A stretch of 64,000 nt of DNA from Brachyhypopomus gauderio (lineage: Eukaryota; Chordata; Actinopteri; Gymnotiformes; Hypopomidae): the NCBI RefSeq assembly GCF_052324685.1, contig NC_135213.1, forward strand, positions 41,698,700 through 41,762,699. Direction: 5' to 3'. The notes beneath the pieces were generated by a model, which was not told the DNA's origin, made no database searches, and saw nothing but the letters and a program-made list of their open reading frames with translations. Positions within the stretch are counted from its first letter, which is position 1. The number at the start of each line of letters is the position of its first letter. The position numbers and the translations under genes are program-made. This document shows, one piece after another, positions 2,209 to 41,481 of this stretch.

Positions 2209-2281
2209 GCCTCGTTAGCGCAGTAGGTAGCGCGTCAGTCTCATAATCTGAAGGTCGTGAGTTCGACCCTCACACGGGGCA
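2209..2281 (+). tRNA. tRNA-Met(CAT)
   Basis: Consensus copy of the array (C48, T loop TTCGACC), followed by GCAGAAG and the TTTTT terminator. Confidence 0.97.
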
Positions 2282-2864
2282 GCAGAAGCTTTTTGAAAAG
2301 ATTGACGAGCCCCCAAAAGATGCTCAAACGCTCTTTCCTTATTCACTCGCATGCTGAGCACACCCCCTACCTGAAAATAGTATTGGCACATGACTCTTAC
2401 AGGTCATCCCTAGTTGATTCAAGCTGTGCTTTTTCTTTTGTAAATTCGCGTGTACACAGCAAGATGTGTTGCATCCAATTCAATTCTCTCCACTGACCGT
2501 TCAGTCAATACCTTGATGGCGTCTGTATTGACACCTCTACTGAGACATCAAGCTGCCTCTTTGGAGCATGTTCGCTCCCAGATCAAACTGCAGTGTCGTG
2601 GTGCCAACACAGAATAATGGACCACGTCGGACACTTTTCACTTTTGATTCTTTTTGATTCACTTTTGATGACACGCTTTTGAATACCTGATCACCTGGAA
2701 TTGGTACCAGCTTGAAGTTAATAGTGAGTAGACTTATGGAGATTCATTTATTTGAATTTTCTTCTCAAGCCATTTGCAACTCAGAAGCAATGACACTTGT
2801 GCACTCATCATTGAGCTTGAGGAAGTCCAAGGAATTGATCTCTATGTTACTCTCGCTCCGCCGA

Positions 2865-2946
2865 GCTGCGATGGCCGAGAGGTTAAGGCGTTGGACTTGA
2901 AATCCAATGGGGTTTCCCCGCGCAGGTTTGACTCCTGCTTGCAGCG
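2865..2946 (+). tRNA. tRNA-Ser(TGA), T-loop variant
   Basis: Consensus body, but the T loop reads TTTGACT in place of TTCGACT. This changes the nearly invariant C56, which pairs with G19 and is also a core base of box B. Reduced transcription or folding is likely. Confidence 0.92.
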
Positions 2947-3350
2947 TGAGTGTCTTGTTGGGCGTGTGGAAAGAGAGAGTGTGCTCTCTTCCTGCTAGCC
3001 AGTTTTAAATATGCTTCTCATGCCATTTGCAACTTTGTGCTGCCAAACTTTAGCAGTCCTAACTGATCCTGAAATAGTCCCAGGAATTGAGTTACAAATG
3101 GCTGCTTCGTCGTTACAATGTGTTGGCATGGAAATGCAGTGGGGTCTCTTGCAGCGTAGAGGATTAACTTGCCTCTCTAATGTGATTTGTGATGAGACCT
3201 TATGCCACCAGTGGGGAGAGCTTGCACTCACAGGTGCTTCATCCAAAGATCTTCATGCAACATAGCGAAGTCTTGTTTCAGGTAAAAGAAAAAGTGCCAC
3301 ATTCTTTCATGGCCGGTCACTGGTTGCTCCGCCTTGCGCTAAAAGAGGGT

Positions 3351-3422
3351 CTCCCCGTCGGGGAATCGAACCCCGGTCTTCCGCGTGACAGGCGGAGATA
3401 CTATCCACTATACTAACGAGGA
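3351..3422 (-). tRNA. tRNA-Asp(GTC)
   Basis: Identical in the gene body to the copy at 1375. The + strand sequence upstream of its 3' flank carries an AGCGAAG variant near 3265. Confidence 0.97.
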
Positions 3423-4184
3423 CACGTGCTGTGTCTCGCAGTGATGCTGAGTCAGGTGACGTGCACTTGTCCCCTTGATTTTAAAGTACTCTGAATCATT
3501 GTGCCTGCAAGGAGGTGGTAAAAAGAACACATTGTGGTGATATTGACTCACTGTTGCCACTCCTCTTTTACCATCGTCAGTTTGTGGACTTATGATAGGA
3601 AAAACTCAGAATCTTGGTGACCTACAGGTTTGATTCATCTGCCTTCCTAGTTAAGTCATGCGAACCATTTGCTGCAAAATTGGCTTTAGCTACATTGGCA
3701 ATTCATTTTGTCTTCGTATTCCAGTGCATTGTACCGAACTGCAATATCCATCTTAGATCAACTGAGATTTTGCATTTCTCTCTTTCCCACATGCAAGTTC
3801 TGAATTTCTTGGCACACATTACTGCTTTGCATCTACTAAAAGCACTCCAGAGAAAGCTTCACTTCATACCTTCATGAGGTAGGTGTCGTTTGTACTTGTA
3901 TTTTGGTGGTATTTTTGTTTTTTTTTTTTGTTTGTGTGCGTTGTTTGTCTACTCTTGGAACATCCTGTGATTGGTTAGGGTAGGATTAGAGTTTAATTAC
4001 GTTGGCCTCAGATTCTGGTTAATTCCAGGCTTCTTGTGCTAACCTTGTTGTTTGTTAGCTGTTGTTGGCAGTAATTAGTTGCTGCAGGTGCACTTGCCGC
4101 CATGCTCCAAGGAGTGAATTGGGGGCGGATACATTTTTTCTCCAGCTTTGTTAGTTCTTCCTCAGCCTCGCTTCTTCTTTCCTA

Positions 4185-6161: not shown

Positions 6162-6174
6162 GCCTCGTTGGCGC
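6162..6174 (+). pseudogene. 5' stub of interrupted tRNA-Met
   Basis: The first 13 bases of a tRNA-Met gene (GCCTCGTTGGCGC) end at the transposon. It carries G where the intact array genes have A (TTAGCGC). Confidence 0.92.
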
Positions 6175-6194
6175 TCATTGTCGACTGTCAGTCG

Positions 6195-6350
6195 AGGTAA
6201 TTCTAGGTAACTCTTGGTAGCGATATCCAATCATCTTTCAGCCTGCTACCAGAATGATATCAAGAATTGGCCAATCGTTGGCCTTATCGCTATCAAGAAT
6301 AGCTCGACAGACTGAATGAACCAATCACAAGACGTATCGCTTCCAAGAAT
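6195..6350. repeat. Left subterminal repeats of the Dada-like element, copy 1
   Basis: A motif close to TATCGCTWYCAAGAAT occurs at about 6285-6301 and 6331-6346, and in inverse orientation at about 6205-6228 (CTCTTGGTAGCGATATCC). A perfect palindrome GGCCAATCGTTGGCC lies at 6269-6283. Clustered subterminal motifs like these are candidate transposase-binding sites; that role is inferred. Confidence 0.55.
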
Positions 6351-6416
6351 GGGCGATGACGACACGGTGTCAAATGCCAATCGCGAGCGTCTCACAGCGC
6401 TCCTCAGAATTTAAGT

Positions 6417-6451
6417 TATATAGGCGGGTTTTAGGGGAGAGTTATATTCAG
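6417..6451 (+). promoter_or_regulatory. TATA box and initiator of the transposase gene, copy 1
   Basis: TATATA at 6417-6422 is followed by an initiator-like TTCAGTT with a candidate start A at 6450, about 30 bp downstream. The spacing is right for a pol II core promoter, and a good splice donor follows 86 bp later. Confidence 0.65.
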
Positions 6452-6535
6452 TTCAACATTAACTTTCGTAGCTGGTCTGCGCTCGTTTCTTATACATTCT
6501 CGGACACGGACCTTTCGACGTCTACAAAGAAAAAT
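6450..6535 (+). other. Untranslated first exon of the transposase gene, copy 1
   Basis: Runs from the candidate start A to the splice donor at 6536 (AAAAAT then GTAAGTA). The matching acceptor just before the ATG reads CAC-AG in copy 2 but CAC-CG in copy 1 (7663-7664), so correct joining of this exon is doubtful in copy 1. Confidence 0.55.
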
Positions 6536-6966
6536 GTAAGTATAAATATAAACGTATTAAGTGTGCTAGCTTAGTAGGTTTTGTTAACGGCGCATCGCGC
6601 TATGCAAGATTACTATCCACCGTAATTCAGCTGCATTTATATACGTAGTATTGACTTAACTCTATGATATCTATTTTTATGGAACGAAGAAAAATGTATT
6701 TGTAAATATAAACGTATTAATTGTGTAAAGTGTGCTAGCTTAGTGGCTTTGCAAGATTACTATCCACCGTAATTCAGCTGCATTTATATACGTAGTATTG
6801 ACTTAACTCTATGATATCTATTTTTATGGAACGAAGAAAAATGTATGTGTAAATATAAACGTATTAATTGTGTAGATAAAGTGTGCTAGCTTAGTGGCTT
6901 TGCAAGATTACTATCCACCGTAATTCAGCTGCATTTATATACGTAGTATTGACTTAACTCTGATAT
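6527..6966. repeat. Tandem repeats of about 150 bp in the 5' intron, copy 1
   Basis: Three repeats start with AAGAAAAATG at 6527, 6687 and 6834 and end near TTGACTTAACTCT. Each repeat carries a copy of the first splice-donor region; the later two read GTATTTG and GTATGTG where the first has GTAAGT. Confidence 0.85.
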
Positions 6967-7080
6967 CTGAACGCCATATCAACCACTTAGTCATAGCATC
7001 GGGGCTTAACCACCTTGCAACCACTTTTTGATGACAAAACGGCATTTACATTCACCTGGGAAAAGTACAACTGCTTTTAA

Positions 7081-7522
7081 AACCAGAAGTCCCAGTAATT
7101 TCAACTATAGAGTTTAGAAAGACTTAGTCCAGATGTGCAAATGTGGCCATTGCCTGGCATTTACATTCACCTGGGAAAAGTCCTGAAAGGGTCAAAAGAC
7201 CCTTAATCCAGACTGACTACCCTGATGGCTCCAAATCAATATCTCTTCATTTGCAAATGTGGCCATTGCCTGGCATTTACATTCACCTGGGAAAAGCCCT
7301 GAAAGGGTCAAAAGACCCTTAATCCAGACTGACTACCCTGATGGCTCCAAATCAATATCTCTTCATTTGCAAATGTGGCCATTGCCTGGCATTTACATTC
7401 ACCTGGGAAAAGCCCTGAAAGGGTCAAAAGACCCTTAATCCAGACTGACTACCCTGATGGCTCCAAATCAATATCTCTTCATTTGCAAATGTAGCCATGA
7501 CCCTTCTCTGGGACTTCTAGTG
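7081..7522. mobile_element. piggyBac-type MITE in the 5' intron, copy 1
   Basis: Bounded by TTAA at 7077-7080 and 7523-7526. The right end GGGACTTCTAGTG matches the inverse of the left end ACCAGAAGTCCC imperfectly, and both match the ends of the larger piggyBac element at 27543. The body is mostly three 115-117-bp tandem repeats starting at 7137, 7254 and 7369. Each contains a hairpin AAGGGTC-AAAA-GACCCTT. There is no coding capacity. The segment CATTTACATTCACCTGGG also occurs just outside the left TTAA (7043), so the true left border may lie further out. Confidence 0.7.
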
Positions 7523-7667
7523 TTAAATGTTCATGGACATGTTTTATTTATTCATTTATTCTCTGAATTATTTGTTTTTACACTTTTACATGTTCCAATA
7601 ATACTTCATAATAAATAATAATTATTATAATAATTATAACTATTTAATAATACTCTATTCACCGACC

Positions 7668-10600
7668 ATGGAACCCATATTCAGGAAGAAAGCTGATGGC
7701 AGTCCCAATCTGTGTGACTCCAAGGCTGCCCTATGTGTGAAGGAAGCCAATAAAAAGAAGCCGTGGGCCAGAGCCATTTCTCCTGAAAAGGTGAAGGATT
7801 CTGCAAGACGGGCAGTGTTGCGCTCAGGTGGAGATCCAGGCAACGCTGTCCACATGCTGGGTCAACATGAGCTTCAGTTTGGAGTTTTCAGGGGTCAGAC
7901 CTTCAAGTGGGTGGCTGAAAACGCCCTGGGCTACGCCGGATACCTTGTTGCTGACATGAAGAAGGAGTCTTCACAGGGGAAAGATTCCATTAACCACGCG
8001 GAAAACAAGAAGGCATTCCGTTCATATGTTGAACGTTTCCCAGAGGGCCAATATGCCGTCCGGATCAAGACAGAGAAGATGTCTTGTAGCAGCACTCAGT
8101 CTGCTTCCCTGCCCTGCACCAGCACTGAGCCCAACATCAGTCCGCTGTCTACTGACCCCATGCAAGCCTGCACCAGCACTGAGTCCTCAAGCAGTCAGCT
8201 GTCTGAGCCTGTCCAGTCCTCTGACTCCTGCCAGCCTTCAGTGGCTTCAGTCTCTTCCCTGCGCACTTTGTTGGTTGGGAGAGGCAGTAGCACAAAGAGC
8301 CTAGAAAAGACAGTGAAGAGGCTCATTTCACCCTCCAAGTTCAAACCTTGTAAGTGTATGAATAATGAACTCCTAGAATTTACCATGGACATAAAAGCAA
8401 CCTATTTATTTGATCATGTGTTTTATCACCCATTCCAGCTGTGTCGCTCCCTTCATTTGAACCCACTCACATGGACGACAGTGAACTGGTGACGGCTGCT
8501 GAGCAGGTGGAATCAGAACTGACAGGTAAGATTTATTTATTTTTTATCAATACTGTATAATGTGGCTCATTACTCATTACAAATGTGATTCATGATTATT
8601 TTTCCCCCTTTCTTTTGCTTTCATCTGTTCAGTGCAGAGCAGAATTTGCCTCCCTGCTGGATGGAAACCTGCTCTTCCTATTGTAGATCAGCAGTGGATT
8701 TCCAAGGCACTCTTCAAGTGGTCACGAAATGGACAACCAGAGTTGGACCATTCGAAAGTGGACAAGATGTGGTGGCACCCCCCTCAGCCTTCACTAACTC
8801 CCAGTGGTGTGCCAGCAATGGAGAGGTACTTTGGACATGCCTTGTTTCTCTGGATGCCGAGGAAGCTTTGGCATGTGCGGCTGTTCTGCCCCCATCCTGA
8901 CTGTGGCAAGGAGGAGCTCACGTCTGCTGGAGTGCATCAGAGGATCAGGCAGGTGGTTGGTATCAGCAGCTCCTACTTCATGGCAGCAGAATACCTTGCC
9001 TGTAAGAGCTGCAAGAGGAAGGTGATCAGCTGGAGCCACAACATTGTCTGTCAGCTGGACATTGGCCATCGTGTCCAGTTTCCCTGCTTCCTCACCTCCA
9101 AGCTGGCATGTGACATGCAAGTAGTGCGGCAGATGCGTCAGAGGGGTTTGGGGAACAGCAGCAGTCAGCTCCAGAAGCAGATGGAGGAGCAGCACTCGGA
9201 GGCCTGGCTGGAGAAACAGGTCCAGTACCTCACAGACTGCAAAGGACTCGTGAGAGCTGCATCGTCTGGACTCATCACACCTGTTGTTCTAGGGGATCTG
9301 CCACCATTGCTCCAAGTCCCAAAGCATCGCTGGCTGATGCAGGTGTATGCTCAGGATGTCCTGAACAGACTAGAGGAGGTAAAGGCCTCCATCACCTCGC
9401 AGTTTGGCCGTGTGCTAAAGATGGACTCCACAAAAAAAATTGTGAGGAAGCTGGCAGGACAGAGCCGCGCAACAGCAGCTTGGGCCACCAACGTTGGCAA
9501 CGAGCACGGACAAGTCATCATGTCTGTGCTCACGGCCAGTGAAGGCTATGGCTTGGGCAAGATGATTGATGGCATCATGAAGCGCTACCGAGACGCTGGT
9601 GTGTCAACTCCAGAGGTGCTGTATGTTGACCGGGACTGCTGCGGGGCCACTCATCTCAGAAACATGTTTAAGGGATGGGAGGACATGGAGATCCGACTGG
9701 ACATCTGGCACTACATGAGGAGGATAGCGGTTGGCTGCACCACTGACTCCCATGTGCTTTATGCAGGCTTCATGAACAGTCTGAGCCACTGTATTTTCAT
9801 GTGGGATGAGTCTGACCTCCAGGCGCTTAAGGAGGCCAAGCGCTCAGAGCTGGAGGCAAAGTTGATGCACCCCACGGATGCAGGTGTGATGAGGAACATC
9901 ACCAGAGCAGAGATGGCACTGCACTGCAAGAGGACCACTCGCAGCTGTGAGGACATCAAGGCACTTGTGACAGAGTTGATCCGGTCCTACGATGGTGAGA
10001 AGGGCTGCAACACCCTTGGCGTGCCCCTCATCAACTCTGCGAGGATGGCCGAGATCTGGAGCAGCCAAACAAAGCACATTGCCTGCATCCAGGACCCTCC
10101 GGGTGTACAACTGTACATGCAGACGGGAACCATCCTGAAGGGGGGGCACAGTCTGCCAACGTACAGATGTGCCAGAGGTTCTACTTCCCTGGAATCCTTT
10201 CACCTGCATATGAACAGGTTCATTCCTGGTAAGCTTCCACCTATACGTTAAAGCCTTTAATGTAGTTACTTATCTAAAACCAGTCTAACAATTTCAATGT
10301 GTAATATGTTTCAGGGACCTTGGCAAGTGATACTTTTTTCCAGGCTTACCTGGTGGATGGCCTTGCCAGGTGGAATGAAGACCGGAGACTGGCAGCTGCA
10401 GGAAAAGACCAGCCCCATTCCTACAGTGGCCTGCTTAAATATGCTGCCAACCAGCTGTCTCAGGAGGTACTGGGGAGAACACTGGTGGACTACACAGGGC
10501 CACGAAAGTATACAGGTACGCCTAAATTTACATGATCCGAGAAATAAAAAGTAAAAAGCAGTTACTGTTGGCCTGGACATTTATGCTTCTTGTTTTTATT

Positions 10601-11901
10601 TTTTCTTTCAGGAGAGCTCATAGGTGTGGAGTACTTATACGAGCAGACCGGCAGTGCCCTGGAAGACTATAAATTAGTCATCTTGGCTCTTGAGACTGAG
10701 GATGTGACCGTGGCAGAAGATGAAGGTTTTGAAGAGGCACAGGATTTTGAGGACTTAACTGTCCCAGCATTTGAAACAGAACCACCTGCTGTGCCATCTG
10801 CTTCTGATGCCTCCAGTGGTGTTGCATTTGCTCCTCCGGTCTCCATCTCTGCTCCTCCGGTCTCCATCTCTGCTCCTCCGGTCTCCATCTCTGCTCCTCC
10901 GGTCTCCATCTCTGCTCCTCCGGTCTCCATCTCTGCTCCTCCAGTCTCCATCTCTGCTCCCCTGGTCTCTCCACCTGCTCCTTCAAACAGCAACCCGACT
11001 TCTGCTCTTGTGGCTTCCCCTAGCCAAGATGTAAGATTTCTTCTGTTCATTCCATTAATTGGTGACTCTGATAGGCTTGTATACATGCTGCTTCCTGCTT
11101 TATCTAATCACTGTGATTCTTCATTTAGGACTCAGTGGGACCTGATAACATTGAGGGCTATAGAGCTGTGCAGAACTTGGCAGACTACCTAGTCACCCTG
11201 AAGGACCACAGCTTTGCTTTGTCGCTTGAGGAATCAAGCCACATCATCACCCTTTGGCAGGCTCTTAGTGACTATGATAAGTAGCGCATGGTATATGCTC
11301 CACGTCATCAAGCCACTTTGAACAAGGGGCGCTTCAGGGTCACTAAGAAAATTGTAGCTCCAGGCGTGGAGTCCACAAGGCGGTAAGCTGTTATGCGTAA
11401 ATGCACTGGTTTACAGTGTTTATGTGTAAATGCACTGGTTTACAGTGTTTATGTGTAAATGCACTGGTTTGCAGTGTTTATGTTGGCAAATTAATAATCA
11501 TCTGTGTATATTGTGTTTTTTATTCTTTTCCAGGTGTTTTGTTGGAGCAAACAGCCCTGCACAGTGGCCAGACTGCAACAGAGTTGTGGAGGCAATCTTT
11601 GTCCGGCTGTGTATTACATTTCCAAACCCGAAAAACATCGGTGGGGTCAGGTTTGGAAGGTGGACCCTCATCTGTCGTGCTTACAAGCACATCAGGGAGT
11701 GCGTCTTGAGTAATGCACATGTGATGCAGGGGACCACCATCCAGCTACCAGAAGTGAATGCCACCACACTGTCAGAGTGGTGAGTCAATCAATTTTCAGA
11801 TGTTAAAAAAATGTATTTAACTATATTTAATTAATATCGGGATTTATTTGTTGACAGCCATGTTCTTCTTAAAATGTCTTTTTAATTTAATAACTGAACT
11901 C

Positions 11902-11964
<63 letters not shown>

Positions 11965-12778
11965 GTACTGCAGGCGGACTCGTTCACAGGAGTCTGATGT
12001 TCTTCATCAGGGCATCATGCCTCCAGAAGCACCAGTATCAGGTCCTACAACACAGCGGTCCACACCCCAGAAGGACAGTCTTGCCTCTCACCCCTCCACA
12101 GACAGCCCCCATGTCTTTGTCCTGCCCCCTGACACTGCGGGGACGGCAAAGTTGAAGAGACGTTTGACCTTCACATCAGGTCCAGCTTCATCTGCTCCAC
12201 CTCAGCAGAACCTGCCTGCACCTCCCCAGTGTGTCTCCTACAGCATGCCTACTGATCCTGGATTTTGTTTGGTGTATGTAGTGCCAGGACCTGGTCCAGA
12301 CAGCCATAGCCAAGTGGTGGCACAAGGAGTGACACACATTATGCCTGCTACCACCAGCCACATTATGCCTGCTACCGCCAGCCACATTATGCCTGCTACC
12401 GCCAGCCATAGCCAAGGAGTGGCACACATTATGCCTGCTACCGCCAGCCATAGCCAAGGAGTGGCACACATTATGCCTGCTACCGCTGGATCCAGTCAGG
12501 GTGCGTTGGCAGTGACCCAGATGTCAGATGTGCCATACACGACACAGCAATACCGGAAGCGGAAATTGAAAAACGAGATGGCTGGTATAAAGACCCGCAA
12601 ATATGTTCGCCACACCAGCGCTATAATTTGCAGGAGATGCCAAAAAGAGAGGAAGCCCCCCACACATCAACAGTACTTTGGCAACTGGTATTGTGAAGAA
12701 ACTGACACCATGTCACTGGAGGATTGGAAGGCTATGCTGGTAGCACGGGGCTATGGAAAGAAGAAAGCCCCAAAATAA
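7668..12778 (+). CDS. Dada-like DDE transposase gene, copy 1 (eight coding exons, in-frame stop)
   Basis: Exons by GT-AG sites and continuous frame: 7668-8349, 8439-8525, 8633-10228, 10315-10515, 10612-11030, 11129-11382, 11534-11779 and 11965-12778, giving 1,432 codons. The N-terminal 256 residues include a Ser/Thr-rich linker. A Cys-containing DUF6729-like region follows, with candidate metal-binding Cys342, 347, 380 and 383 and WWHPP near 303. The DDE core has D521 (KMDSTKK), D589 (LYVDRDCC), H616 (DIWHYMRR) and E777 (TSLESFH). Exon 6 carries six PPVSISA repeats. Exon 9 (counting the noncoding first exon) ends with a CxxC-H-C finger (C1384, C1387, H1396, C1405). An in-frame TAG (11282-11284, codon 1047) stands where CAG would fit (DYDK-RMVYAPRHQ), after the core. 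AATAAA overlaps the stop. The gene cuts and moves its own element and is probably inactive as a full-length protein. Confidence 0.75.
11904..11962 (+). repeat. (TG)n microsatellite at a 3' splice site, copy 1
   Basis: 59 bp of TG repeat runs directly into the TAG acceptor of the last exon (11963-11964). It replaces a normal pyrimidine tract. It is 12 bp longer than in copy 2. Confidence 0.9.
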
Positions 12779-12986
12779 AAATTATGTGTCTGCATAATTG
12801 TATATATTATAATTGTATATATGTGCCATGATTGTAAATATATTAGTAGTAGCTGTAGTGTTAGTATCTTAGTCAAGTCAAAACATTGTGTATTTGTATA
12901 TATTAAACATTGTAATTTTTTAAATTATTTGCATAGGTATCTGTAAACGTTGTATATATATTATATATATATTATTTATATTATAA

Positions 12987-13344
12987 TGTCACGTTGAGGA
13001 CCCCGGCCCCTCCCTTTTGGGCGTGTGTTTACGTAGTCTACGTGCATCGTCTGCGTCTGTGGATATCTCGTGGTGATGGCTATGTCATGTGATAATCCGT
13101 CTCACCTGTGAATCGTCTCGTAATCACCTGGGGTTAATGTGGTTTGTCTATTTAATGTGCGCTCGCGCAGTGTCCTGTGCTCGTCGTTGTCTAAGTCTAC
13201 ACGTTGTGTGTATGAGAAGTGGTTTACGTGCGCTATTGCGCTATATCTCTGTTTTTCGTGCGCGTTACGCGCTACAATAAAAGTGACGTCAGTCAAGCCA
13301 GAGGGATTCGTGTCTCGTCCTTCGTCCAAGCCCCGAGCGTCACA
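12987..13344 (+). repeat. 5' LTR, copy 1
   Basis: 358 bp, TG...CA, with ACAATAAAAG near its end as a possible polyadenylation signal. Same as the 3' LTR. Confidence 0.9.
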
Positions 13345-15170
13345 GAACGACGAGCCGCGAAGAGACACCAACATGCCAGGCTACGCCACCCGGCATAAGA
13401 AGGCGGATCGCCCCAGCAAGCGGCACCACCGCTCTTCTTCCTCTCCCCCGCGCCGCAAAGCCCAGCCGACTCGGGCACAGCTTATGCAGGACCCCGAGTG
13501 CGCGTACCTGCTGTGCGCGGCTCGGGAGACATCCATACCCGAGCTGGCGGAGGAGTACCGCCGGACAGCGGCACGGGTGTGGGAGGAGAGGCACCCAGCT
13601 CCTTCCCGGGAAGGATCACCCATACGGGTGAGTAACCCAGAGCTCCACGAGGCGTCGCCACCAGAGGGCATGCTCGTAGAGGAGGAGAACCCGCCGACGC
13701 TGGCGCAGCTAGAGGAGGACCCGGTGTGCGCCTTCCAGCTGGCCTCAGCCCGGCGGCTAGAGGAGAGGGAACCCGAGCTGGCAGAGTCCCTCCGCCAGGG
13801 CGCGGTGCGGATTTGGAGGGAGCGACACTCCCCTCCATCCCGCGTCCTCTCGCCTCTGAGGGTGGGCTCCTGCGTCTTCGGTGCTGCCGAGTCCACCCCA
13901 GAGAGCGAATTTGGGGAGGTGGACTCCGAGGAGGAGCAAGAGGAAGCGGAGGAGGCCTACCCTCCCTCTCTGTACGATGCTTCCACCGTTGACTATGGTG
14001 GGGAAGGGGAGGAATCCTACCCCCCGTCGGTGAACGACGACAGTGAGGAAGAGGAGGAGCAAGAGGAGGTGGAGGAAGCCTACCCTCCATCTCTGTATGA
14101 TGCCTCCACCATTGACTATGGTGGGGAGGGGGAGGACTCCTACCCCCCGTCGGTGGACGACTACGGTGAGGATGAGGAGGAGTCAGAGGAAGAATATCTC
14201 CCTCCGCCCGTGGATTCCTCTCCCACCGTCGAGGAGGGGGAGGAGTGCTCCGACGGCGGGTACTCCGCCTACCCCGCTGGAGACGGTGAGGAGGAGGAGG
14301 GCACGGACAGCGACCTCTATTCAGAGGAGGAGGGCAGTGCGCCTCCCTCCGAGTGTTCCGTGGGAACTGTAAAGGGAGGGGGCACTCCTGGGGAGACCGC
14401 GTCCTCCGGACCTTCCAGGGCCAGCCCCATGGACTATTCCCGGGGTGAGAGCCCGGCTAAGTCTATGGAAGGGGTCCTGGAGGGCGAGGAGGAGCCGATG
14501 GACTATGAGGAGGAGCTCCCTCACGCTGCGCCTGGCAAGCCCGCCAGCTACGCTGCCTCGGACACGTCCACCCGCGGCGTTGCACCTGGCACGTCCGCCC
14601 GCCGCGCTGCCCCTGGCACGTCAGCCCGCCGCGCTGCCCCTGGCACGTCAGCCCGCCGCGCTGCCCCTGGCACGTCAGCCCGCCGCGCTGCCCCTGGCAC
14701 GTCAGCCCGCCGCGCTGCCCCTGGCACGTCAGCCCGCCGCGCTGCACCTGGCGGAGAGCCCGCAGCAAAGGCAGGAGGAGCACCGCCTACCGCAGCGCCT
14801 GCAGCCCCAGCAGCTCCGGACCTCTCTCCCCTGCTCGCTCTCCTCCTGGCGCGAAGCCTGGCGCCCATGTCGTGTGTGTGTGTTCCCGTGTTTGTCAGTC
14901 TTCCCCTTTGTGTGCCAAACCCGTTTTTTCCTCTTGTGCCACTGTGTGTGAGCGTGCCTGTTTGTGTGTTTGTTCCGTTTAATGTGTCTTCCGTCTTTTC
15001 CCCCGTCTTCCCAGGGAGGGTGTTCTAGGCGGTCCGTGGCGGACGCTTCACCAAGGGTAGTCACCTCCCAGACGCAGGACGGAGCGCGTCGGATCCGCCC
15101 ATCGTCGTGGGTTCGGGGCACTCGGTCCTGTTGGCACCCCGGGACGGGTAGTGCCCTTGGAGGGGGCGTC

Positions 15171-15528
15171 TGTCACGTTGAGGACCCCGGCCCCTCCCTT
15201 TTGGGCGTGTGTTTACGTAGTCTACGTGCATCGTCTGCGTCTGTGGATATCTCGTGGTGATGGCTATGTCATGTGATAATCCGTCTCACCTGTGAATCGT
15301 CTCGTAATCACCTGGGGTTAATGTGGTTTGTCTATTTAATGTGCGCTCGCGCAGTGTCCTGTGCTCGTCGTTGTCTAAGTCTACACGTTGTGTGTATGAG
15401 AAGTGGTTTACGTGCGCTATTGCGCTATATCTCTGTTTTTCGTGCGCGTTACGCGCTACAATAAAAGTGACGTCAGTCAAGCCAGAGGGATTCGTGTCTC
15501 GTCCTTCGTCCAAGCCCCGAGCGTCACA
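15171..15528 (+). repeat. 3' LTR, copy 1
   Basis: 358 bp, preceded by GGAGGGGGCGTC (polypurine-like) and followed by the TATAA duplication. Confidence 0.9.
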
Positions 15529-15599
15529 TATAATATAATAATATATATATATTATATATTATATATATATATTATATATATATATATATATTATATATT
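15529..15599. repeat. (AT)n microsatellite, copy 1
   Basis: AT-only tract of about 70 bp directly after the LTR element. A shorter AT-rich run also precedes it (about 12952-12986), so the LTR element landed inside an AT microsatellite. Confidence 0.9.
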
Positions 15600-15615
15600 G
15601 TGGATAATGTTCTCT

Positions 15616-15880
15616 AATGTGTTGTGTTTTTAATAAAAGTGCCTGGTTGGTTTTATCGTTCATAATAAATGTGTTGTGTTTGGATTTATCGTTCATAATA
15701 AATGTGTTGTGTTTTAAACATGTGTCTGGTTGGTTTTATCGTTTATAATATCACGCATTTCCTTTATATTTAACCAATTTATAAATATGTAATATCACGC
15801 GCTTCCTTTGTATTTAAGTATTTATGAACGTGTCCGATAATATCGCGCATTTCCTTTGCATTTAACTATTTCCAAACTTG
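15616..15880. repeat. Right subterminal repeats of the Dada-like element, copy 1
   Basis: Two nested repeat sets. One is a GTGTTGTGTTT / TTTATCGTTCATAATAAAT repeat in about three copies between 15619 and 15750. The second is AATATCRCGCRYTTCCTTT followed by ATTTAA, in three copies starting at 15747, 15791 and 15839. They may be transposase-binding sites; no function can be proven from sequence. Confidence 0.7.
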
Positions 15881-15974
15881 TCCGATGCGGGATTCGATAC
15901 GATGCTCGACTGGGCGAATCTTAGTAATTGTTTACTATTAATAGCGCCGAAACCTCGACACACACGCGCAGTCC

Positions 15975-16041
15975 TTGGCGCAGTAGGTAGCGCGTCAGTC
16001 TCATAATCTGAAGGTCGTGAGTTCGACCCTCACACGGGGCA
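15975..16041 (+). pseudogene. 3' part of interrupted tRNA-Met, copy 1
   Basis: tRNA-Met from position 7 to the end, beginning with the duplicated TTGGCGC. The first six acceptor bases are replaced by transposon sequence (GCAGTCC), so the acceptor stem cannot form. The duplication rebuilds a complete A box (TGGCGCAGTAGG), and box B and the TTTTT terminator are intact, so pol III transcription remains possible. Confidence 0.9.
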
Positions 16042-23876: not shown

Positions 23877-23949
23877 GCCTCGTTAGCGCAGTAGGTAGCG
23901 CGTCAGTCTCATAATCTGAAGGTTGTGAGTTCGACCCTCACACGGGGCA
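23877..23949 (+). tRNA. tRNA-Met(CAT), C48T
   Basis: Variable region GGTTGTGAG in place of GGTCGTGAG, changing C48 of the G15-C48 tertiary pair. This is the common A-type allele. Confidence 0.95.
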
Positions 23950-24532
23950 GCAGAAGCTTTTTGAAAAGATTGACGAGCCCCCAAAAGATGCTCAAACGCT
24001 CTTTCCTTATTCACTCGCATGCTGAGCACACCCCCTACCTGAAAATAGTATTGGCACATGACTCTTACAGGTCATCCCTAGTTGATTCAAGCTGTGCTTT
24101 TTCTTTTGTAAATTCGCGTGTACACAGCAAGTTGTGTTGCATCCAATTCAATTCTCTCCACTGACCGTTCAGTCAATACCTTGATGGCGTCTGTATTGAC
24201 ACCTCTACTGAGACATCAAGCTGCCTCTTTTGAGCATGTTCGCTCCCAGATCAAACTGCAGTGTCGTGGTGCCAACACAGAATAATGGACCACGTCGGAC
24301 ACTTTTCACTTTTGATTCTTTTTGATTCACTTTTGATGACACGCTTTTGAATACCTGATCACCTGGAATTGGTACCAGCTTGAAGTTAATAGTGAGTAGA
24401 CTTATGGAGATTCATTTATTTGAATTTTCTTCTCAAGCCATTTGCAACTCAGAAGCAATGACACTTGTGCACTCATCATTGAGCTTGAGGAAGTCCAAGG
24501 AATTGATCTCTATGTTACTCTCGCTCCGCCGA

Positions 24533-24614
24533 GCTGCGATGGCCGAGAGGTTAAGGCGTTGGACTTGAAATCCAATGGGGTTTCCCCGCGCAGGTTCGAC
24601 TCCTGCTTGCAGCG
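24533..24614 (+). tRNA. tRNA-Ser(TGA)
   Basis: Consensus body. Its 3' flank ends at the deletion junction near 24680, 66 bp downstream, where the usual TTTT is still present. Confidence 0.97.
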
Positions 24615-24670
24615 TGAGTGTCTTGTTGGGCGTGTGGAAAGAGAGAGTGTGCTCTCTTCCTGCTAGCCAG

Positions 24671-24690
24671 TTTTAAATATGGTATGCTCC
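24671..24690. other. Deletion fusion between two array units
   Basis: The sequence TTTTAAATAT of the Ser-Asp spacer joins through GGT to ATGCTCCAAGG from upstream of the next tRNA-Met. About 1,086 bp are lost, including one tRNA-Asp. Two extra bases (GT) at the joint suggest end joining, not homologous exchange. Left side is A type, right side B type. Confidence 0.9.
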
Positions 24691-29689: not shown

Positions 29690-29692
29690 CTC

Positions 29693-31618: not shown

Positions 31619-31860
31619 TCATTGTCGACTGTCAGTCGAGGTAATTCTAGGTAACTCTTGGTAGCGATATCCAATCATCTTTCAGCCTGCTACCAGAATG
31701 ATATCAAGAATTGGCCAATCGTTGGCCTTATCGCTATCAAGAATAGCTCGACAGACTGAATGAACCAATCACAAGACGTATCGCTTCCAAGAATGGGCGA
31801 TGACGACACGGTGTCAAATGCCAATCGCGAGCGTCTCACAGCGCTCCTCAGAATTTAAGT

Positions 31861-31895
31861 TATATAGGCGGGTTTTAGGGGAGAGTTATATTCAG
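31861..31895 (+). promoter_or_regulatory. TATA box and initiator of the transposase gene, copy 2
   Basis: TATATA at 31861-31866 and TTCAGTT with candidate start A at 31894, identical to copy 1. Confidence 0.65.
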
Positions 31896-31979
31896 TTCAA
31901 CATTAACTTTCGTAGCTGGTCTGCGCTCGTTTCTTATACATTCTCGGACACGGACCTTTCGACGTCTACAAAGAAAAAT
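31894..31979 (+). other. Untranslated first exon of the transposase gene, copy 2
   Basis: Donor GTAAGT at 31980. The acceptor CACAG ends at 33112, three bases before the ATG, so a complete 5' intron of 1.13 kb is predicted here, unlike in copy 1. Confidence 0.6.
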
Positions 31980-32410
31980 GTAAGTATAAATATAAACGTA
32001 TTAAGTGTGCTAGCTTAGTAGGTTTTGTTAACGGCGCATCGCGCTATGCAAGATTACTATCCACCGTAATTCAGCTGCATTTATATACGTAGTATTGACT
32101 TAACTCTATGATATCTATTTTTATGGAACGAAGAAAAATGTATGTGTAAATATAAACGTATTAATTGTGTAGATAAAGTGTGCTAGCTTAGTGGCTTTGC
32201 AAGATTACTATCCACCGTAATTCAGCTGCATTTATATACGTAGTATTGACTTAACTCTATGATATCTATTTTTATGGAACGAAGAAAAATGTATGTGTAA
32301 ATATAAACGTATTAATTGTGTAGATAAAGTGTGCTAGCTTAGTGGCTTTGCAAGATTACTATCCACCGTAATTCAGCTGCATTTATATACGTAGTATTGA
32401 CTTAACTCTG
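31971..32410. repeat. Tandem repeats of about 150 bp in the 5' intron, copy 2
   Basis: Repeats begin with AAGAAAAATG at 31971, 32131 and 32282. Confidence 0.85.
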
Positions 32411-32528
32411 ATATCTGAACGCCATATCAACCACTTAGTCATAGCATCGGGGCTTAACCACCTTGCAACCACTTTTTGATGACAAAACGGCATTTACATT
32501 CACCTGGGAAAAGTACAACTGCTTTTAA

Positions 32529-32970
32529 AACCAGAAGTCCCAGTAATTTCAACTATAGAGTTTAGAAAGACTTAGTCCAGATGTGCAAATGTGGCCATTG
32601 CCTGGCATTTACATTCACCTGGGAAAAGTCCTGAAAGGGTCAAAAGACCCTTAATCCAGACTGACTACCCTGATGGCTCCAAATCAATATCTCTTCATTT
32701 GCAAATGTGGCCATTGCCTGGCATTTACATTCACCTGGGAAAAGCCCTGAAAGGGTCAAAAGACCCTTAATCCAGACTGACTACCCTGATGGCTCCAAAT
32801 CAATATCTCTTCATTTGCAAATGTGGCCATTGCCTGGCATTTACATTCACCTGGGAAAAGCCCTGAAAGGGTCAAAAGACCCTTAATCCAGACTGACTAC
32901 CCTGATGGCTCCAAATCAATATCTCTTCATTTGCAAATGTAGCCATGACCCTTCTCTGGGACTTCTAGTG
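32529..32970. mobile_element. piggyBac-type MITE in the 5' intron, copy 2
   Basis: Same 442-bp insertion between TTAA sites as in copy 1, including the three 116-bp internal repeats. Confidence 0.7.
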
Positions 32971-33115
32971 TTAAATGTTCATGGACATGTTTTATTTATT
33001 CATTTATTCTCTGAATTATTTGTTTTTACACTTTTACATGTTCCAATAATACTTCATAATAAATAATAATTATTATAATAATTATAACTATTTAATAATA
33101 CTCTATTCACAGACC

Positions 33116-36100
33116 ATGGAACCCATATTCAGGAAGAAAGCTGATGGCAGTCCCAATCTGTGTGACTCCAAGGCTGCCCTATGTGTGAAGGAAGCCAATA
33201 AAAAGAAGCCGTGGGCCAGAGCCATTTCTCCTGAAAAGGTGAAGGATTCTGCAAGACGGGCAGTGTTGCGCTCAGGTGGAGATCCAGGCAACGCTGTCCA
33301 CATGCTGGGTCAACATGAGCTTCAGTTTGGAGTTTTCAGGGGTCAGACCTTCAAGTGGGTGGCTGAAAACGCCCTGGGCTACGCCGGATACCTTGTTGCT
33401 GACATGAAGAAGGAGTCTTCACAGGGGAAAGATTCCATTAACCACGCGGAAAACAAGAAGGCATTCCGTTCATATGTTGAACGTTTCCCAGAGGGCCAAT
33501 ATGCCGTCCGGATCAAGACAGAGAAGATGTCTTGTAGCAGCACTCAGTCTGCTTCCCTGCCCTGCACCAGCACTGAGCCCAACATCAGTCCGCTGTCTAC
33601 TGACCCCATGCAAGCCTGCACCAGCACTGAGTCCTCAAGCAGTCAGCTGTCTGAGCCTGTCCAGTCCTCTGACTCCTGCCAGCCTTCAGTGGCTTCAGTC
33701 TCTTCCCTGCGCACTTTGTTGGTTGGGAGAGGCAGTAGCACAAAGAGCCTAGAAAAGACAGTGAAGAGGCTCATTTCACCCTCCAAGTTCAAACCTTGTA
33801 AGTGTATGAATAATGAACTCCTAGAATTTACCATGGACATAAAAGCAACCTATTTATTTGATCATGTGTTTTATCACCCATTCCAGCTGTGTCGCTCCCT
33901 TCATTTGAACCCACTCACATGGACGACAGTGAACTGGTGACGGCTGCTGAGCAGGTGGAATCAGAACTGACAGGTAAGATTTATTTATTTTTTATCAATA
34001 CTGTATAATGTGGCTCATTACTCATTACAAATGTGATTCATGATTATTTTTCCCCCTTTCTTTTGCTTTCATCTGTTCAGTGCAGAGCAGAATTTGCCTC
34101 CCTGCTGGATGGAAACCTGCTCTTCCTATTGTAGATCAGCAGTGGATTTCCAAGGCACTCTTCAAGTGGTCACGAAATGGACAACCAGAGTTGGACCATT
34201 CGAAAGTGGACAAGATGTGGTGGCACCCCCCTCAGCCTTCACTAACTCCCAGTGGTGTGCCAGCAATGGAGAGGTACTTTGGACATGCCTTGTTTCTCTG
34301 GATGCCGAGGAAGCTTTGGCATGTGCGGCTGTTCTGCCCCCATCCTGACTGTGGCAAGGAGGAGCTCACGTCTGCTGGAGTGCATCAGAGGATCAGGCAG
34401 GTGGTTGGTATCAGCAGCTCCTACTTCATGGCAGCAGAATACCTTGCCTGTAAGAGCTGCAAGAGGAAGGTGATCAGCTGGAGCCACAACATTGTCTGTC
34501 AGCTGGACATTGGCCATCGTGTCCAGTTTCCCTGCTTCCTCACCTCCAAGCTGGCATGTGACATGCAAGTAGTGCGGCAGATGCGTCAGAGGGGTTTGGG
34601 GAACAGCAGCAGTCAGCTCCAGAAGCAGATGGAGGAGCAGCACTCGGAGGCCTGGCTGGAGAAACAGGTCCAGTACCTCACAGACTGCAAAGGACTCGTG
34701 AGAGCTGCATCGTCTGGACTCATCACACCTGTTGTTCTAGGGGATCTGCCACCATTGCTCCAAGTCCCAAAGCATCGCTGGCTGATGCAGGTGTATGCTC
34801 AGGATGTCCTGAACAGACTAGAGGAGGTAAAGGCCTCCATCACCTCGCAGTTTGGCCGTGTGCTAAAGATGGACTCCACAAAAAAAATTGTGAGGAAGCT
34901 GGCAGGACAGAGCCGCGCAACAGCAGCTTGGGCCACCAACGTTGGCAACGAGCACGGACAAGTCATCATGTCTGTGCTCACGGCCAGTGAAGGCTATGGC
35001 TTGGGCAAGATGATTGATGGCATCATGAAGCGCTACCGAGACGCTGGTGTGTCAACTCCAGAGGTGCTGTATGTTGACCGGGACTGCTGCGGGGCCACTC
35101 ATCTCAGAAACATGTTTAAGGGATGGGAGGACATGGAGATCCGACTGGACATCTGGCACTACATGAGGAGGATAGCGGTTGGCTGCACCACTGACTCCCA
35201 TGTGCTTTATGCAGGCTTCATGAACAGTCTGAGCCACTGTATTTTCATGTGGGATGAGTCTGACCTCCAGGCGCTTAAGGAGGCCAAGCGCTCAGAGCTG
35301 GAGGCAAAGTTGATGCACCCCACGGATGCAGGTGTGATGAGGAACATCACCAGAGCAGAGATGGCACTGCACTGCAAGAGGACCACTCGCAGCTGTGAGG
35401 ACATCAAGGCACTTGTGACAGAGTTGATCCGGTCCTACGATGGTGAGAAGGGCTGCAACACCCTTGGCGTGCCCCTCATCAACTCTGCGAGGATGGCCGA
35501 GATCTGGAGCAGCCAAACAAAGCACATTGCCTGCATCCAGGACCCTCCGGGTGTACAACTGTACATGCAGATGGGAACCATCCTGAAGGGGGGGCACAGT
35601 CTGCCAACGTACAGATGTGCCAGAGGTTCTACTTCCCTGGAATCCTTTCACCTGCATATGAACAGGTTCATTCCTGGTAAGCTTCCACCTATACGTTAAA
35701 GCCTTTAATGTAGTTACTTATCTAAAACCAGTCTAACAATTTCAATGTGTAATATGTTTCAGGGACCTTGGCAAGTGATACTTTTTTCCAGGCTTACCTG
35801 GTGGATGGCCTTGCCAGGTGGAATGAAGACCGGAGACTGGCAGCTGCAGGAAAAGACCAGCCCCATTCCTACAGTGGCCTGCTTAAATATGCTGCCAACC
35901 AGCTGTCTCAGGAGGTACTGGGGAGAACACTGGTGGACTACACAGGGCCACGAAAGTATACAGGTACGCCTAAATTTACATGATCCGAGAAATAAAAAGT
36001 AAAAAGCAGTTACTGTTGGCCTGGACATTTATGCTTCTTGTTTTTATTTTTTCTTTCAGGAGAGCTCATAGGTGTGGAGTACTTATACGAGCAGACCGGC

Positions 36101-37349
36101 AGTGCCCTGGAAGACTATAAATTAGTCATCTTGGCTCTTGAGACTGAGGATGTGACCGTGGCAGAAGATGAAGGTTTTGAAGAGGCACAGGATTTTGAGG
36201 ACTTAACTGTCCCAGCATTTGAAACAGAACCACCTGCTGTGCCATCTGCTTCTGATGCCTCCAGTGGTGTTGCATTTGCTCCTCCGGTCTCCATCTCTGC
36301 TCCTCCGGTCTCCATCTCTGCTCCTCCGGTCTCCATCTCTGCTCCTCCGGTCTCCATCTCTGCTCCTCCGGTCTCCATCTCTGCTCCTCCAGTCTCCATC
36401 TCTGCTCCCCTGGTCTCTCCACCTGCTCCTTCAAACAGCAACCCGACTTCTGCTCTTGTGGCTTCCCCTAGCCAAGATGTAAGATTTCTTCTGTTCATTC
36501 CATTAATTGGTGACTCTGATAGGCTTGTATACATGCTGCTTCCTGCTTTATCTAATCACTGTGATTCTTCATTTAGGACTCAGTGGGACCTGATAACATT
36601 GAGGGCTATAGAGCTGTGCAGAACTTGGCAGACTACCTAGTCACCCTGAAGGACCACAGCTTTGCTTTGTCGCTTGAGGAATCAAGCCACATCATCACCC
36701 TTTGGCAGGCTCTTAGTGACTATGATAAGTAGCGCATGGTATATGCTCCACGTCATCAAGCCACTTTGAACAAGGGGCGCTTCAGGGTCACTAAGAAAAT
36801 TGTAGCTCCAGGCGTGGAGTCCACAAGGCGGTAAGCTGTTATGCGTAAATGCACTGGTTTACAGTGTTTATGTGTAAATGCACTGGTTTACAGTGTTTAT
36901 GTGTAAATGCACTGGTTTGCAGTGTTTATGTTGGCAAATTAATAATCATCTGTGTATATTGTGTTTTTTATTCTTTTCCAGGTGTTTTGTTGGAGCAAAC
37001 AGCCCTGCACAGTGGCCAGACTGCAACAGAGTTGTGGAGGCAATCTTTGTCCGGCTGTGTATTACATTTCCAAACCCGAAAAACATCGGTGGGGTCAGGT
37101 TTGGAAGGTGGACCCTCATCTGTCGTGCTTACAAGCACATCAGGGAGTGCGTCTTGAGTAATGCACATGTGATGCAGGGGACCACCATCCAGCTACCAGA
37201 AGTGAATGCCACCACACTGTCAGAGTGGTGAGTCAATCAATTTTCAGATGTTAAAAAAATGTATTTAACTATATTTAATTAATATCGGGATTTATTTGTT
37301 GACAGCCATGTTCTTCTTAAAATGTCTTTTTAATTTAATAACTGAACTC

Positions 37350-37400
<51 letters not shown>

Positions 37401-38214
37401 GTACTGCAGGCGGACTCGTTCACAGGAGTCTGATGTTCTTCATCAGGGCATCATGCCTCCAGAAGCACCAGTATCAGGTCCTACAACACAGCGGTCCACA
37501 CCCCAGAAGGACAGTCTTGCCTCTCACCCCTCCACAGACAGCCCCCATGTCTTTGTCCTGCCCCCTGACACTGCGGGGACGGCAAAGTTGAAGAGACGTT
37601 TGACCTTCACATCAGGTCCAGCTTCATCTGCTCCACCTCAGCAGAACCTGCCTGCACCTCCCCAGTGTGTCTCCTACAGCATGCCTACTGATCCTGGATT
37701 TTGTTTGGTGTATGTAGTGCCAGGACCTGGTCCAGACAGCCATAGCCAAGTGGTGGCACAAGGAGTGACACACATTATGCCTGCTACCACCAGCCACATT
37801 ATGCCTGCTACCGCCAGCCACATTATGCCTGCTACCGCCAGCCATAGCCAAGGAGTGGCACACATTATGCCTGCTACCGCCAGCCATAGCCAAGGAGTGG
37901 CACACATTATGCCTGCTACCGCTGGATCCAGTCAGGGTGCGTTGGCAGTGACCCAGATGTCAGATGTGCCATACACGACACAGCAATACCGGAAGCGGAA
38001 ATTGAAAAACGAGATGGCTGGTATAAAGACCCGCAAATATGTTCGCCACACCAGCGCTATAATTTGCAGGAGATGCCAAAAAGAGAGGAAGCCCCCCACA
38101 CATCAACAGTACTTTGGCAACTGGTATTGTGAAGAAACTGACACCATGTCACTGGAGGATTGGAAGGCTATGCTGGTAGCACGGGGCTATGGAAAGAAGA
38201 AAGCCCCAAAATAA
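33116..38214 (+). CDS. Dada-like DDE transposase gene, copy 2 (eight coding exons, in-frame stop)
   Basis: Exons 33116-33797, 33887-33973, 34081-35676, 35763-35963, 36060-36478, 36577-36830, 36982-37227 and 37401-38214, with all boundaries GT-AG. Domain order, DDE residues and cysteines match copy 1. Residue 754 is Met where copy 1 has Thr, between D589 and E777. The same TAG interrupts exon 7 (36730-36732, codon 1047). Because the 5' intron acceptor is intact, this copy is closer to the working ancestor. A product stopping at codon 1047 would keep the DDE core but lose the C-terminal finger. The region after the stop still reads openly through two more exons, which suggests the stop is recent. 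Confidence 0.75.
37352..37398 (+). repeat. (TG)n microsatellite at a 3' splice site, copy 2
   Basis: 47 bp of TG repeat ending in the TAG acceptor at 37399-37400. Confidence 0.9.
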
Positions 38215-38422
38215 AAATTATGTGTCTGCATAATTGTATATATTATAATTGTATATATGTGCCATGATTGTAAATATATTAGTAGTAGCTGTAGTGTTAG
38301 TATCTTAGTCAAGTCAAAACATTGTGTATTTGTATATATTAAACATTGTAATTTTTTAAATTATTTGCATAGGTATCTGTAAACGTTGTATATATATTAT
38401 ATATATATTATTTATATTATAA

Positions 38423-38780
38423 TGTCACGTTGAGGACCCCGGCCCCTCCCTTTTGGGCGTGTGTTTACGTAGTCTACGTGCATCGTCTGCGTCTGTGGAT
38501 ATCTCGTGGTGATGGCTATGTCATGTGATAATCCGTCTCACCTGTGAATCGTCTCGTAATCACCTGGGGTTAATGTGGTTTGTCTATTTAATGTGCGCTC
38601 GCGCAGTGTCCTGTGCTCGTCGTTGTCTAAGTCTACACGTTGTGTGTATGAGAAGTGGTTTACGTGCGCTATTGCGCTATATCTCTGTTTTTCGTGCGCG
38701 TTACGCGCTACAATAAAAGTGACGTCAGTCAAGCCAGAGGGATTCGTGTCTCGTCCTTCGTCCAAGCCCCGAGCGTCACA
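38423..38780 (+). repeat. 5' LTR, copy 2
   Basis: 358 bp, TG...CA, matching the LTRs of copy 1. Confidence 0.9.
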
Positions 38781-40606
38781 GAACGACGAGCCGCGAAGAG
38801 ACACCAACATGCCAGGCTACGCCACCCGGCATAAGAAGGCGGATCGCCCCAGCAAGCGGCACCACCGCTCTTCTTCCTCTCCCCCGCGCCGCAAAGCCCA
38901 GCCGACTCGGGCACAGCTTATGCAGGACCCCGAGTGCGCGTACCTGCTGTGCGCGGCTCGGGAGACATCCATACCCGAGCTGGCGGAGGAGTACCGCCGG
39001 ACAGCGGCACGGGTGTGGGAGGAGAGGCACCCAGCTCCTTCCCGGGAAGGATCACCCATACGGGTGAGTAACCCAGAGCTCCACGAGGCGTCGCCACCAG
39101 AGGGCATGCTCGTAGAGGAGGAGAACCCGCCGACGCTGGCGCAGCTAGAGGAGGACCCGGTGTGCGCCTTCCAGCTGGCCTCAGCCCGGCGGCTAGAGGA
39201 GAGGGAACCCGAGCTGGCAGAGTCCCTCCGCCAGGGCGCGGTGCGGATTTGGAGGGAGCGACACTCCCCTCCATCCCGCGTCCTCTCGCCTCTGAGGGTG
39301 GGCTCCTGCGTCTTCGGTGCTGCCGAGTCCACCCCAGAGAGCGAATTTGGGGAGGTGGACTCCGAGGAGGAGCAAGAGGAAGCGGAGGAGGCCTACCCTC
39401 CCTCTCTGTACGATGCTTCCACCGTTGACTATGGTGGGGAAGGGGAGGAATCCTACCCCCCGTCGGTGAACGACGACAGTGAGGAAGAGGAGGAGCAAGA
39501 GGAGGTGGAGGAAGCCTACCCTCCATCTCTGTATGATGCCTCCACCATTGACTATGGTGGGGAGGGGGAGGACTCCTACCCCCCGTCGGTGGACGACTAC
39601 GGTGAGGATGAGGAGGAGTCAGAGGAAGAATATCTCCCTCCGCCCGTGGATTCCTCTCCCACCGTCGAGGAGGGGGAGGAGTGCTCCGACGGCGGGTACT
39701 CCGCCTACCCCGCTGGAGACGGTGAGGAGGAGGAGGGCACGGACAGCGACCTCTATTCAGAGGAGGAGGGCAGTGCGCCTCCCTCCGAGTGTTCCGTGGG
39801 AACTGTAAAGGGAGGGGGCACTCCTGGGGAGACCGCGTCCTCCGGACCTTCCAGGGCCAGCCCCATGGACTATTCCCGGGGTGAGAGCCCGGCTAAGTCT
39901 ATGGAAGGGGTCCTGGAGGGCGAGGAGGAGCCGATGGACTATGAGGAGGAGCTCCCTCACGCTGCGCCTGGCAAGCCCGCCAGCTACGCTGCCTCGGACA
40001 CGTCCGCCCGCGGCGTTGCACCTGGCACGTCCGCCCGCCGCGCTGCCCCTGGCACGTCAGCCCGCCGCGCTGCCCCTGGCACGTCAGCCCGCCGCGCTGC
40101 CCCTGGCACGTCAGCCCGCCGCGCTGCCCCTGGCACGTCAGCCCGCCGCGCTGCCCCTGGCACGTCAGCCCGCCGCGCTGCACCTGGCGGAGAGCCCGCA
40201 GCAAAGGCAGGAGGAGCACCGCCTACCGCAGCGCCTGCAGCCCCAGCAGCTCCGGACCTCTCTCCCCTGCTCGCTCTCCTCCTGGCGCGAAGCCTGGCGC
40301 CCATGTCGTGTGTGTGTGTTCCCGTGTTTGTCAGTCTTCCCCTTTGTGTGCCAAACCCGTTTTTTCCTCTTGTGCCACTGTGTGTGAGCGTGCCTGTTTG
40401 TGTGTTTGTTCCGTTTAATGTGTCTTCCGTCTTTTCCCCCGTCTTCCCAGGGAGGGTGTTCTAGGCGGTCCGTGGCGGACGCTTCACCAAGGGTAGTCAC
40501 CTCCCAGACGCAGGACGGAGCGCGTCGGATCCGCCCATCGTCGTGGGTTCGGGGCACTCGGTCCTGTTGGCACCCCGGGACGGGTAGTGCCCTTGGAGGG
40601 GGCGTC

Positions 40607-40964
40607 TGTCACGTTGAGGACCCCGGCCCCTCCCTTTTGGGCGTGTGTTTACGTAGTCTACGTGCATCGTCTGCGTCTGTGGATATCTCGTGGTGATGGC
40701 TATGTCATGTGATAATCCGTCTCACCTGTGAATCGTCTCGTAATCACCTGGGGTTAATGTGGTTTGTCTATTTAATGTGCGCTCGCGCAGTGTCCTGTGC
40801 TCGTCGTTGTCTAAGTCTACACGTTGTGTGTATGAGAAGTGGTTTACGTGCGCTATTGCGCTATATCTCTGTTTTTCGTGCGCGTTACGCGCTACAATAA
40901 AAGTGACGTCAGTCAAGCCAGAGGGATTCGTGTCTCGTCCTTCGTCCAAGCCCCGAGCGTCACA
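40607..40964 (+). repeat. 3' LTR, copy 2
   Basis: 358 bp, followed by TATAA and an AT microsatellite. Confidence 0.9.
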
Positions 40965-41039
40965 TATAATATAATAATATATATATATTATATATTATAT
41001 ATATATATTATATATATATATATATATATATTATATATT
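40965..41039. repeat. (AT)n microsatellite, copy 2
   Basis: About 75 bp, 4 bp longer than in copy 1. Confidence 0.9.
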
Positions 41040-41055
41040 GTGGATAATGTTCTCT

Positions 41056-41320
41056 AATGTGTTGTGTTTTTAATAAAAGTGCCTGGTTGGTTTTATCGTT
41101 CATAATAAATGTGTTGTGTTTGGATTTATCGTTCATAATAAATGTGTTGTGTTTTAAACATGTGTCTGGTTGGTTTTATCGTTTATAATATCACGCATTT
41201 CCTTTATATTTAACCAATTTATAAATATGTAATATCACGCGCTTCCTTTGTATTTAAGTATTTATGAACGTGTCCGATAATATCGCGCATTTCCTTTGCA
41301 TTTAACTATTTCCAAACTTG
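41056..41320. repeat. Right subterminal repeats of the Dada-like element, copy 2
   Basis: Same two repeat sets as in copy 1; the AATATCRCGC repeats start at 41187, 41231 and 41279. Confidence 0.7.
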
Positions 41321-41414
41321 TCCGATGCGGGATTCGATACGATGCTCGACTGGGCGAATCTTAGTAATTGTTTACTATTAATAGCGCCGAAACCTCGACA
41401 CACACGCGCAGTCC

Positions 41415-41481
41415 TTGGCGCAGTAGGTAGCGCGTCAGTCTCATAATCTGAAGGTCGTGAGTTCGACCCTCACACGGGGCA
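41415..41481 (+). pseudogene. 3' part of interrupted tRNA-Met, copy 2
   Basis: Begins with TTGGCGC and has the rebuilt A box, box B and terminator, with transposon bases in place of the first six acceptor bases. Confidence 0.9.

Follow-up and report, generated by a model that had tools for sequence, protein, structure and literature searches.

What placed a 9.8-kb insert inside a tRNA-Met gene, and did the position of the insert follow from target choice? The window, the 64,000-nucleotide stretch of Brachyhypopomus gauderio DNA that was analysed, is a tandem array with a unit of ~1976 bp that carries a tRNA-Met gene (+), a tRNA-Ser gene (+), and a tRNA-Asp gene (-). ARAGORN made 64 tRNA calls in the window and Rfam gave 64 matches. 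Relative to the unit at 2209-4184, which served as reference, full units had 99.24-99.60% identity. The window contains 22 tRNA-Met genes, 2 split by the element and 20 without an insertion. One array unit, at 23877-24766, was shortened to 890 bp and had lost its tRNA-Asp gene. The best 20 of 316 literature matches listed for a Met/Ser/Asp tRNA array in fish held nothing useful.

The first split gene occupies 6162-16041 and the second copy of the element lies at 31619-41415. The order at the junctions is GCCTCGT (tRNA-Met nt 1-7; 6162-6168, left of copy 1), TGGCGC, element, TGGCGC, and tRNA-Met from nt 14 onward. The parts are as follows.

6162..6174, + strand: tRNA-Met 5′ fragment, nt 1-13, by comparison with intact array genes
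6169-6174, + strand: left TGGCGC copy of the target duplication, the last six bases of the 5′ fragment
6175..15975, + strand: copy 1 of the putative Dada element, 9801 bp assuming a 6-bp TGGCGC duplication
15976..16041, + strand: tRNA-Met 3′ fragment from nt 8, starting with the right TGGCGC
31619..41415, + strand: copy 2 of the putative Dada element, flanked by TGGCGC at 31613-31618 and 41416-41421

The insertion falls within the A box, in a small RNA gene of which the array has many copies, and the junctions at tRNA nt 8-13 confirm the claim of the initial annotation that a DDE transposon sits in the A box of tRNA-Met. The same annotation gave the duplication as 7 bp, TTGGCGC. This heptamer was found at 6168-6174, 15975-15981, 31612-31618, and 41415-41421, a count not above chance (4 found vs. 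6.2 expected from shuffles). The location of TTGGCGC, on either side of a single insert at tRNA nt 8-13, does not look random. If a single event fell uniformly at random within a ~1976-bp unit holding three tRNA genes, simple arithmetic puts the chance of landing at nt 8-13 of any of them at 3/1976, or ~0.15%.

Repeats are present on both sides as the initial annotation stated; however, a length of 6 bp (TGGCGC, tRNA nt 8-13) is more probable than 7 bp, because only with 6 bp does an 8-bp sub-terminal inverted repeat have an equal offset at both ends.

6191..6198, + strand: 5′ sub-terminal inverted repeat GTCGAGGT, positions 17-24 from the 5′ end
15952..15959, - strand: 3′ sub-terminal inverted repeat GTCGAGGT, positions 17-24 from the 3′ end
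6187..6193, + strand: GTCAGTC, element positions 13-19, also present at an equal offset in the tRNA gene (36 of 20000 shuffles; per-test value, six tests)

Inverted GTCGAGGT at positions 17-24 of both ends was equalled in 10 of 20000 base shuffles (first 40 positions, 6-bp duplication; per-test value, six tests). With a 7-bp duplication, no run of at least 4 matches was found between the inverted ends. The ends have sub-terminal inverted repeats, and their first six bases do not match, i.e., terminal repeats are absent. The printed duplication length for the nt 8-13 site is likewise 6 bp (Kojima 2022, PMC8869645). Six pairings of element ends and target were shuffle-tested, and four gave no signal, including every pairing of the 3′ end with the target; only the 5′ end is linked to the target, by GTCAGTC. 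The 25 longest of 333 inverted-repeat pairs were AT-rich or other internal pairs with no bearing on the ends.

The element carries a transposase gene in the same orientation as the tRNA gene. Its exons were modelled by hand from GT/AG junctions and an unbroken frame, with the last acceptor at 11965 or 11974.

7668..12778, + strand: transposase gene, 8 exons (7668-8349, 8439-8525, 8633-10228, 10315-10515, 10612-11030, 11129-11382, 11534-11779, 11965-12778)
8662..9363, + strand: Pfam DUF6729, encoded in the core exon before the DDE residues (residues 23-256 of the frame that begins at 8596; E 6.2e-90)
11282..11284, + strand: TAG stop in the modelled frame, codon 1047 of 1433, with no difference between the two copies

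The DDE residues of the model were assigned by motif and spacing as D521, D589, and E777, with DxxH (DIWH) at 613. An N-terminal CCCC motif (C342, C347, C380, C383; spacings 5, 33, 3) and a C-terminal CCHC motif at 1384-1405 (spacings 3, 9, 9) were also found; the latter lies downstream of the stop codon and was detected with a looser pattern after a stricter first pattern had missed it. The TAG may be a true break in the gene or a fault of the exon model. When the core exon was compared with Pfam at E up to 1, a search in which HMMER filters remove most weak matches, DUF6729 was the sole match; no named transposase family was hit. This domain of unknown function sits directly before the DDE core of a Dada-type transposase, a location that may hint at a role for the domain; no paper naming it was found in the limited literature searched. 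Comparison of the transposase sequence with solved structures gave one chance-level match (SPT16, E 0.39), and single-sequence structure prediction of the 551-aa core frame was unusable (mean pLDDT 33.9). The search for transposase relatives gave no pattern match in viral contigs, 9 pattern matches in genome contigs with none confirmed, and none in plasmids. Four other pieces were compared with Pfam: three had no match, and the fourth had a chance-level match (E 0.095) under its cut-off.

Motifs, ends, duplication, and target all support assignment of the element to the Dada superfamily. The suggested kinship with Dada held up: the Dada traits examined were present, namely a DDE core with DxxH, two zinc-finger motifs, introns, sub-terminal inverted repeats, a short duplication, and a small-RNA-gene target, and nt 8-13 of tRNA genes is a published target site of this superfamily. 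A member of another superfamily could have landed in a tRNA gene by chance, since hAT, MuDR, Kolobok, and P have the DDE and C/DxxH motifs in common with Dada (PMC8869645). However, the core exon matched no named transposase family in Pfam at E up to 1, the zinc-finger layout, ends, and target position are Dada-like, and chance placement at nt 8-13 is expected in only ~0.15% of cases; such an origin is very improbable.

There are strong signs that the two copies represent a single Dada insertion that was duplicated along with the array. Between copy 1 and copy 2 there are 4 substitutions, plus 3 indels confined to simple or tandem repeats, and the same two nested elements, an LTR element and a TTAA-flanked element, occur in both. 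The units downstream of the copies differ in 1 of 1971 columns; among 17 other full units, the closest has 3 differences from the unit behind copy 1 and 4 from that behind copy 2. The left flanks of the copies are identical over the 260 columns adjoining the element; among the 19 sequences compared over those columns, 2 show no difference, 14 show 1, and 3 show 2-4. When 1159 columns are compared, the copies differ in their left flanks at 6 positions, and two other units are closer to copy 2, with 3 differences. The left side gives weak support to a common origin; a left breakpoint near the element, or a later exchange, would explain this pattern. Two independent insertions, which would amount to strict tRNA-Met targeting, would also account for two copies at the identical base, and are consistent with left flanks that are not mutually nearest over 1159 columns. 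The common nested LTR and TTAA elements, the lack of any difference at the stop codon, and the near identity of the downstream units argue against this possibility, and we consider it highly unlikely. Because the window thus contains one independent event, target preference is not established by the two copies. An array can multiply an element without transposition, and caution is needed when copies in tRNA arrays are counted as independent evidence of target choice.

The nested elements common to the two copies have the following positions in copy 1.

12987..15528, + strand: nested LTR element with identical 358-bp LTRs (12987-13344 and 15171-15528) and TG...CA ends
7077..7526, no strand assigned: small nested element ending in TTAA on each side, with a 116-bp tandem repeat inside and end repeats of which one is perfect and the other degraded

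TATAA is present on both sides of the nested LTR element, and the surroundings are AT-rich. Within this element, the frame at 13124-15028 has 634 codons from stop to stop, with acidic and tandem-repeat stretches, and had no Pfam match at E up to 1; it is perhaps the gag-like frame of a non-autonomous element. The small element at 7077-7526 is presumably piggyBac-like. Another array unit carries a 2.9-kb insert at 27543-30423 that has TTAA on each side and whose end repeats, CACTAGAAGTCCC, are perfect; we take it to be a non-autonomous piggyBac-type element. The element at 7077-7526 and its counterpart in copy 2 have ends similar to CACTAGAAGTCCC, one of these ends carrying 2 mismatches.

The flanks of the Dada element differ by one base from the corresponding sequence of intact genes. 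All 20 uninserted tRNA-Met genes have TAGCGC, whereas all four element flanks have TGGCGC; because TAGCGC is invariant in the uninserted genes, the flanks do not simply repeat the sequence of their neighbors. In the unit alignment this G, which lies inside the 6-bp target, was the only letter confined to the two element-flanked downstream units. Flank replacement has been reported for Dada-tA (PMC3706591, PMC8869645) and Dada-tY (PMC8869645). By analogy, it is slightly more probable than not that the TGGCGC flanks travelled with the element and took the place of TAGCGC. A somewhat less probable reading is that the element inserted into a rare tRNA-Met gene already having TGGCGC, with a plain 6-bp duplication and no replacement. 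According to PMC8869645, TGGCGC is the target of Dada-tR and Dada-tN and, in zebrafish and medaka, is carried at nt 8-13 by Met and other tRNA types; a transposase that prefers TGGCGC would choose such a variant. However, none of the 20 uninserted tRNA-Met genes of the window has TGGCGC, and the confinement of the G, within the 6-bp target, to the two element-flanked downstream units also weighs against a pre-existing variant.

Replacement could have a specific basis, for which we offer a hypothetical and rather unlikely proposal: the element would bring its own 6-bp TGGCGC and swap out TAGCGC at both ends, the 6-nt overhangs of the donor pairing with near-identical target overhangs and repair keeping the element version. 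The overhang-pairing step is our own; the travel of old flanks with the element has already been proposed for Dada-tA and Dada-tY (PMC8869645). If the proposal were true, the 6 bp would be a carried coupling sequence with a part in target choice rather than a plain target duplication. The locus is a cleanly bounded case: the intact array neighbors show the expected target, and the puzzle of Dada flank replacement is reduced to one base.

Leaving aside flank replacement, the evidence makes it very probable that a Dada-superfamily DNA transposon inserted once at nt 8-13, within the A box, of a tRNA-Met gene of the Met/Ser/Asp array. At the level of sequence, this explanation draws on the junctions, the target position, the Dada motif layout, and the sub-terminal inverted repeats, with strong signs that the second copy arose via the array. 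The transposase would have located the target by its DNA sequence, the 5′ end of the element having GTCAGTC at the offset seen in the tRNA gene. A 6-bp staggered cut would then have been made at nt 8-13 and the element ends joined there; the site would be tolerable because many intact tRNA-Met copies remain. Later exchange within the array would have doubled the element. The least certain of the steps is the replacement of TAGCGC by TGGCGC in the flanks.

The 3′ fragment is still called as a tRNA, with 46 bits (15971-16041) vs. 66.8 (18 of 20) and 64.2 (2 of 20) for intact Met genes. The right-hand TGGCGC restores the gene from nt 8 onward, so that this fragment retains an A-box sequence together with all of the gene that follows it. 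Because it lacks its own 5′ acceptor strand, it is taken for a pseudogene, which may still be transcribed. The possibility that it is a working tRNA with an acceptor strand supplied by the element was rejected; by hand count, acceptor pairing is limited to 3 of 7 pairs, including a G-U.

Comparison with known Dada families draws on Kojima and Jurka 2013 (PMC3706591) and Kojima 2022 (PMC8869645). Dada-U6_DR has D567 and D635, CCCC spacings of 5, 35, and 3, CCHC spacings of 3, 10, and 9, and a D2-E distance of 176 (PMC3706591). The D-D spacing is 68 in both transposases, the spacings of both zinc-finger motifs agree within 2, and the D2-E distance is 188 here vs. 176. Dada-U6 and Dada-U1 similarly have no terminal and short sub-terminal inverted repeats, and a sequence at equal distance in the target gene (PMC3706591). 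They differ in having snRNA targets, and in that the target gene contains their repeat itself (PMC3706591), whereas here GTCAGTC (13-19) overlaps the repeat (17-24) without being the repeat. Dada-tA resembles the present element in having flanks unlike the intact target genes, with GCGCAA for TAGCAT in 5 of 6 full-length zebrafish copies; however, it inserts in the anticodon region in an orientation opposite to the tRNA gene (PMC3706591), rather than in the A box in the same orientation. Dada-tY and Dada-tK have the nt 8-13 site, with target TAGCTC followed by AG, and the Dada-tY target is often replaced on insertion by another sequence, TGGCGG (PMC8869645); in the present case the pair is TAGCGC and TGGCGC, in tRNA-Met.

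Dada-tR and Dada-tN have TGGCGC as target, 6 bp at tRNA nt 8-13, with Arg, Asn, and Met genes inserted (Kojima 2022, PMC8869645). Here the element flanks have TGGCGC but the intact neighbors TAGCGC. The published target is followed by AA (PMC8869645), whereas AG follows here; because of AG in place of AA, the element is not filed under the Dada-tN/Dada-tR lineage. The limited literature search found no occurrence of the name Dada-tM, no paper with "Dada transposon" and "tRNA-Met" together, and only PMC8869645 on Dada in fish tRNA genes since 2022. The initial annotation had raised tRNA-Met as a possibly new target, an idea that is not supported, since insertion of Dada-tR/Dada-tN in Met genes is already in print (PMC8869645). 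tRNA-Met is a known target, and the element is a further member of Dada at that target.
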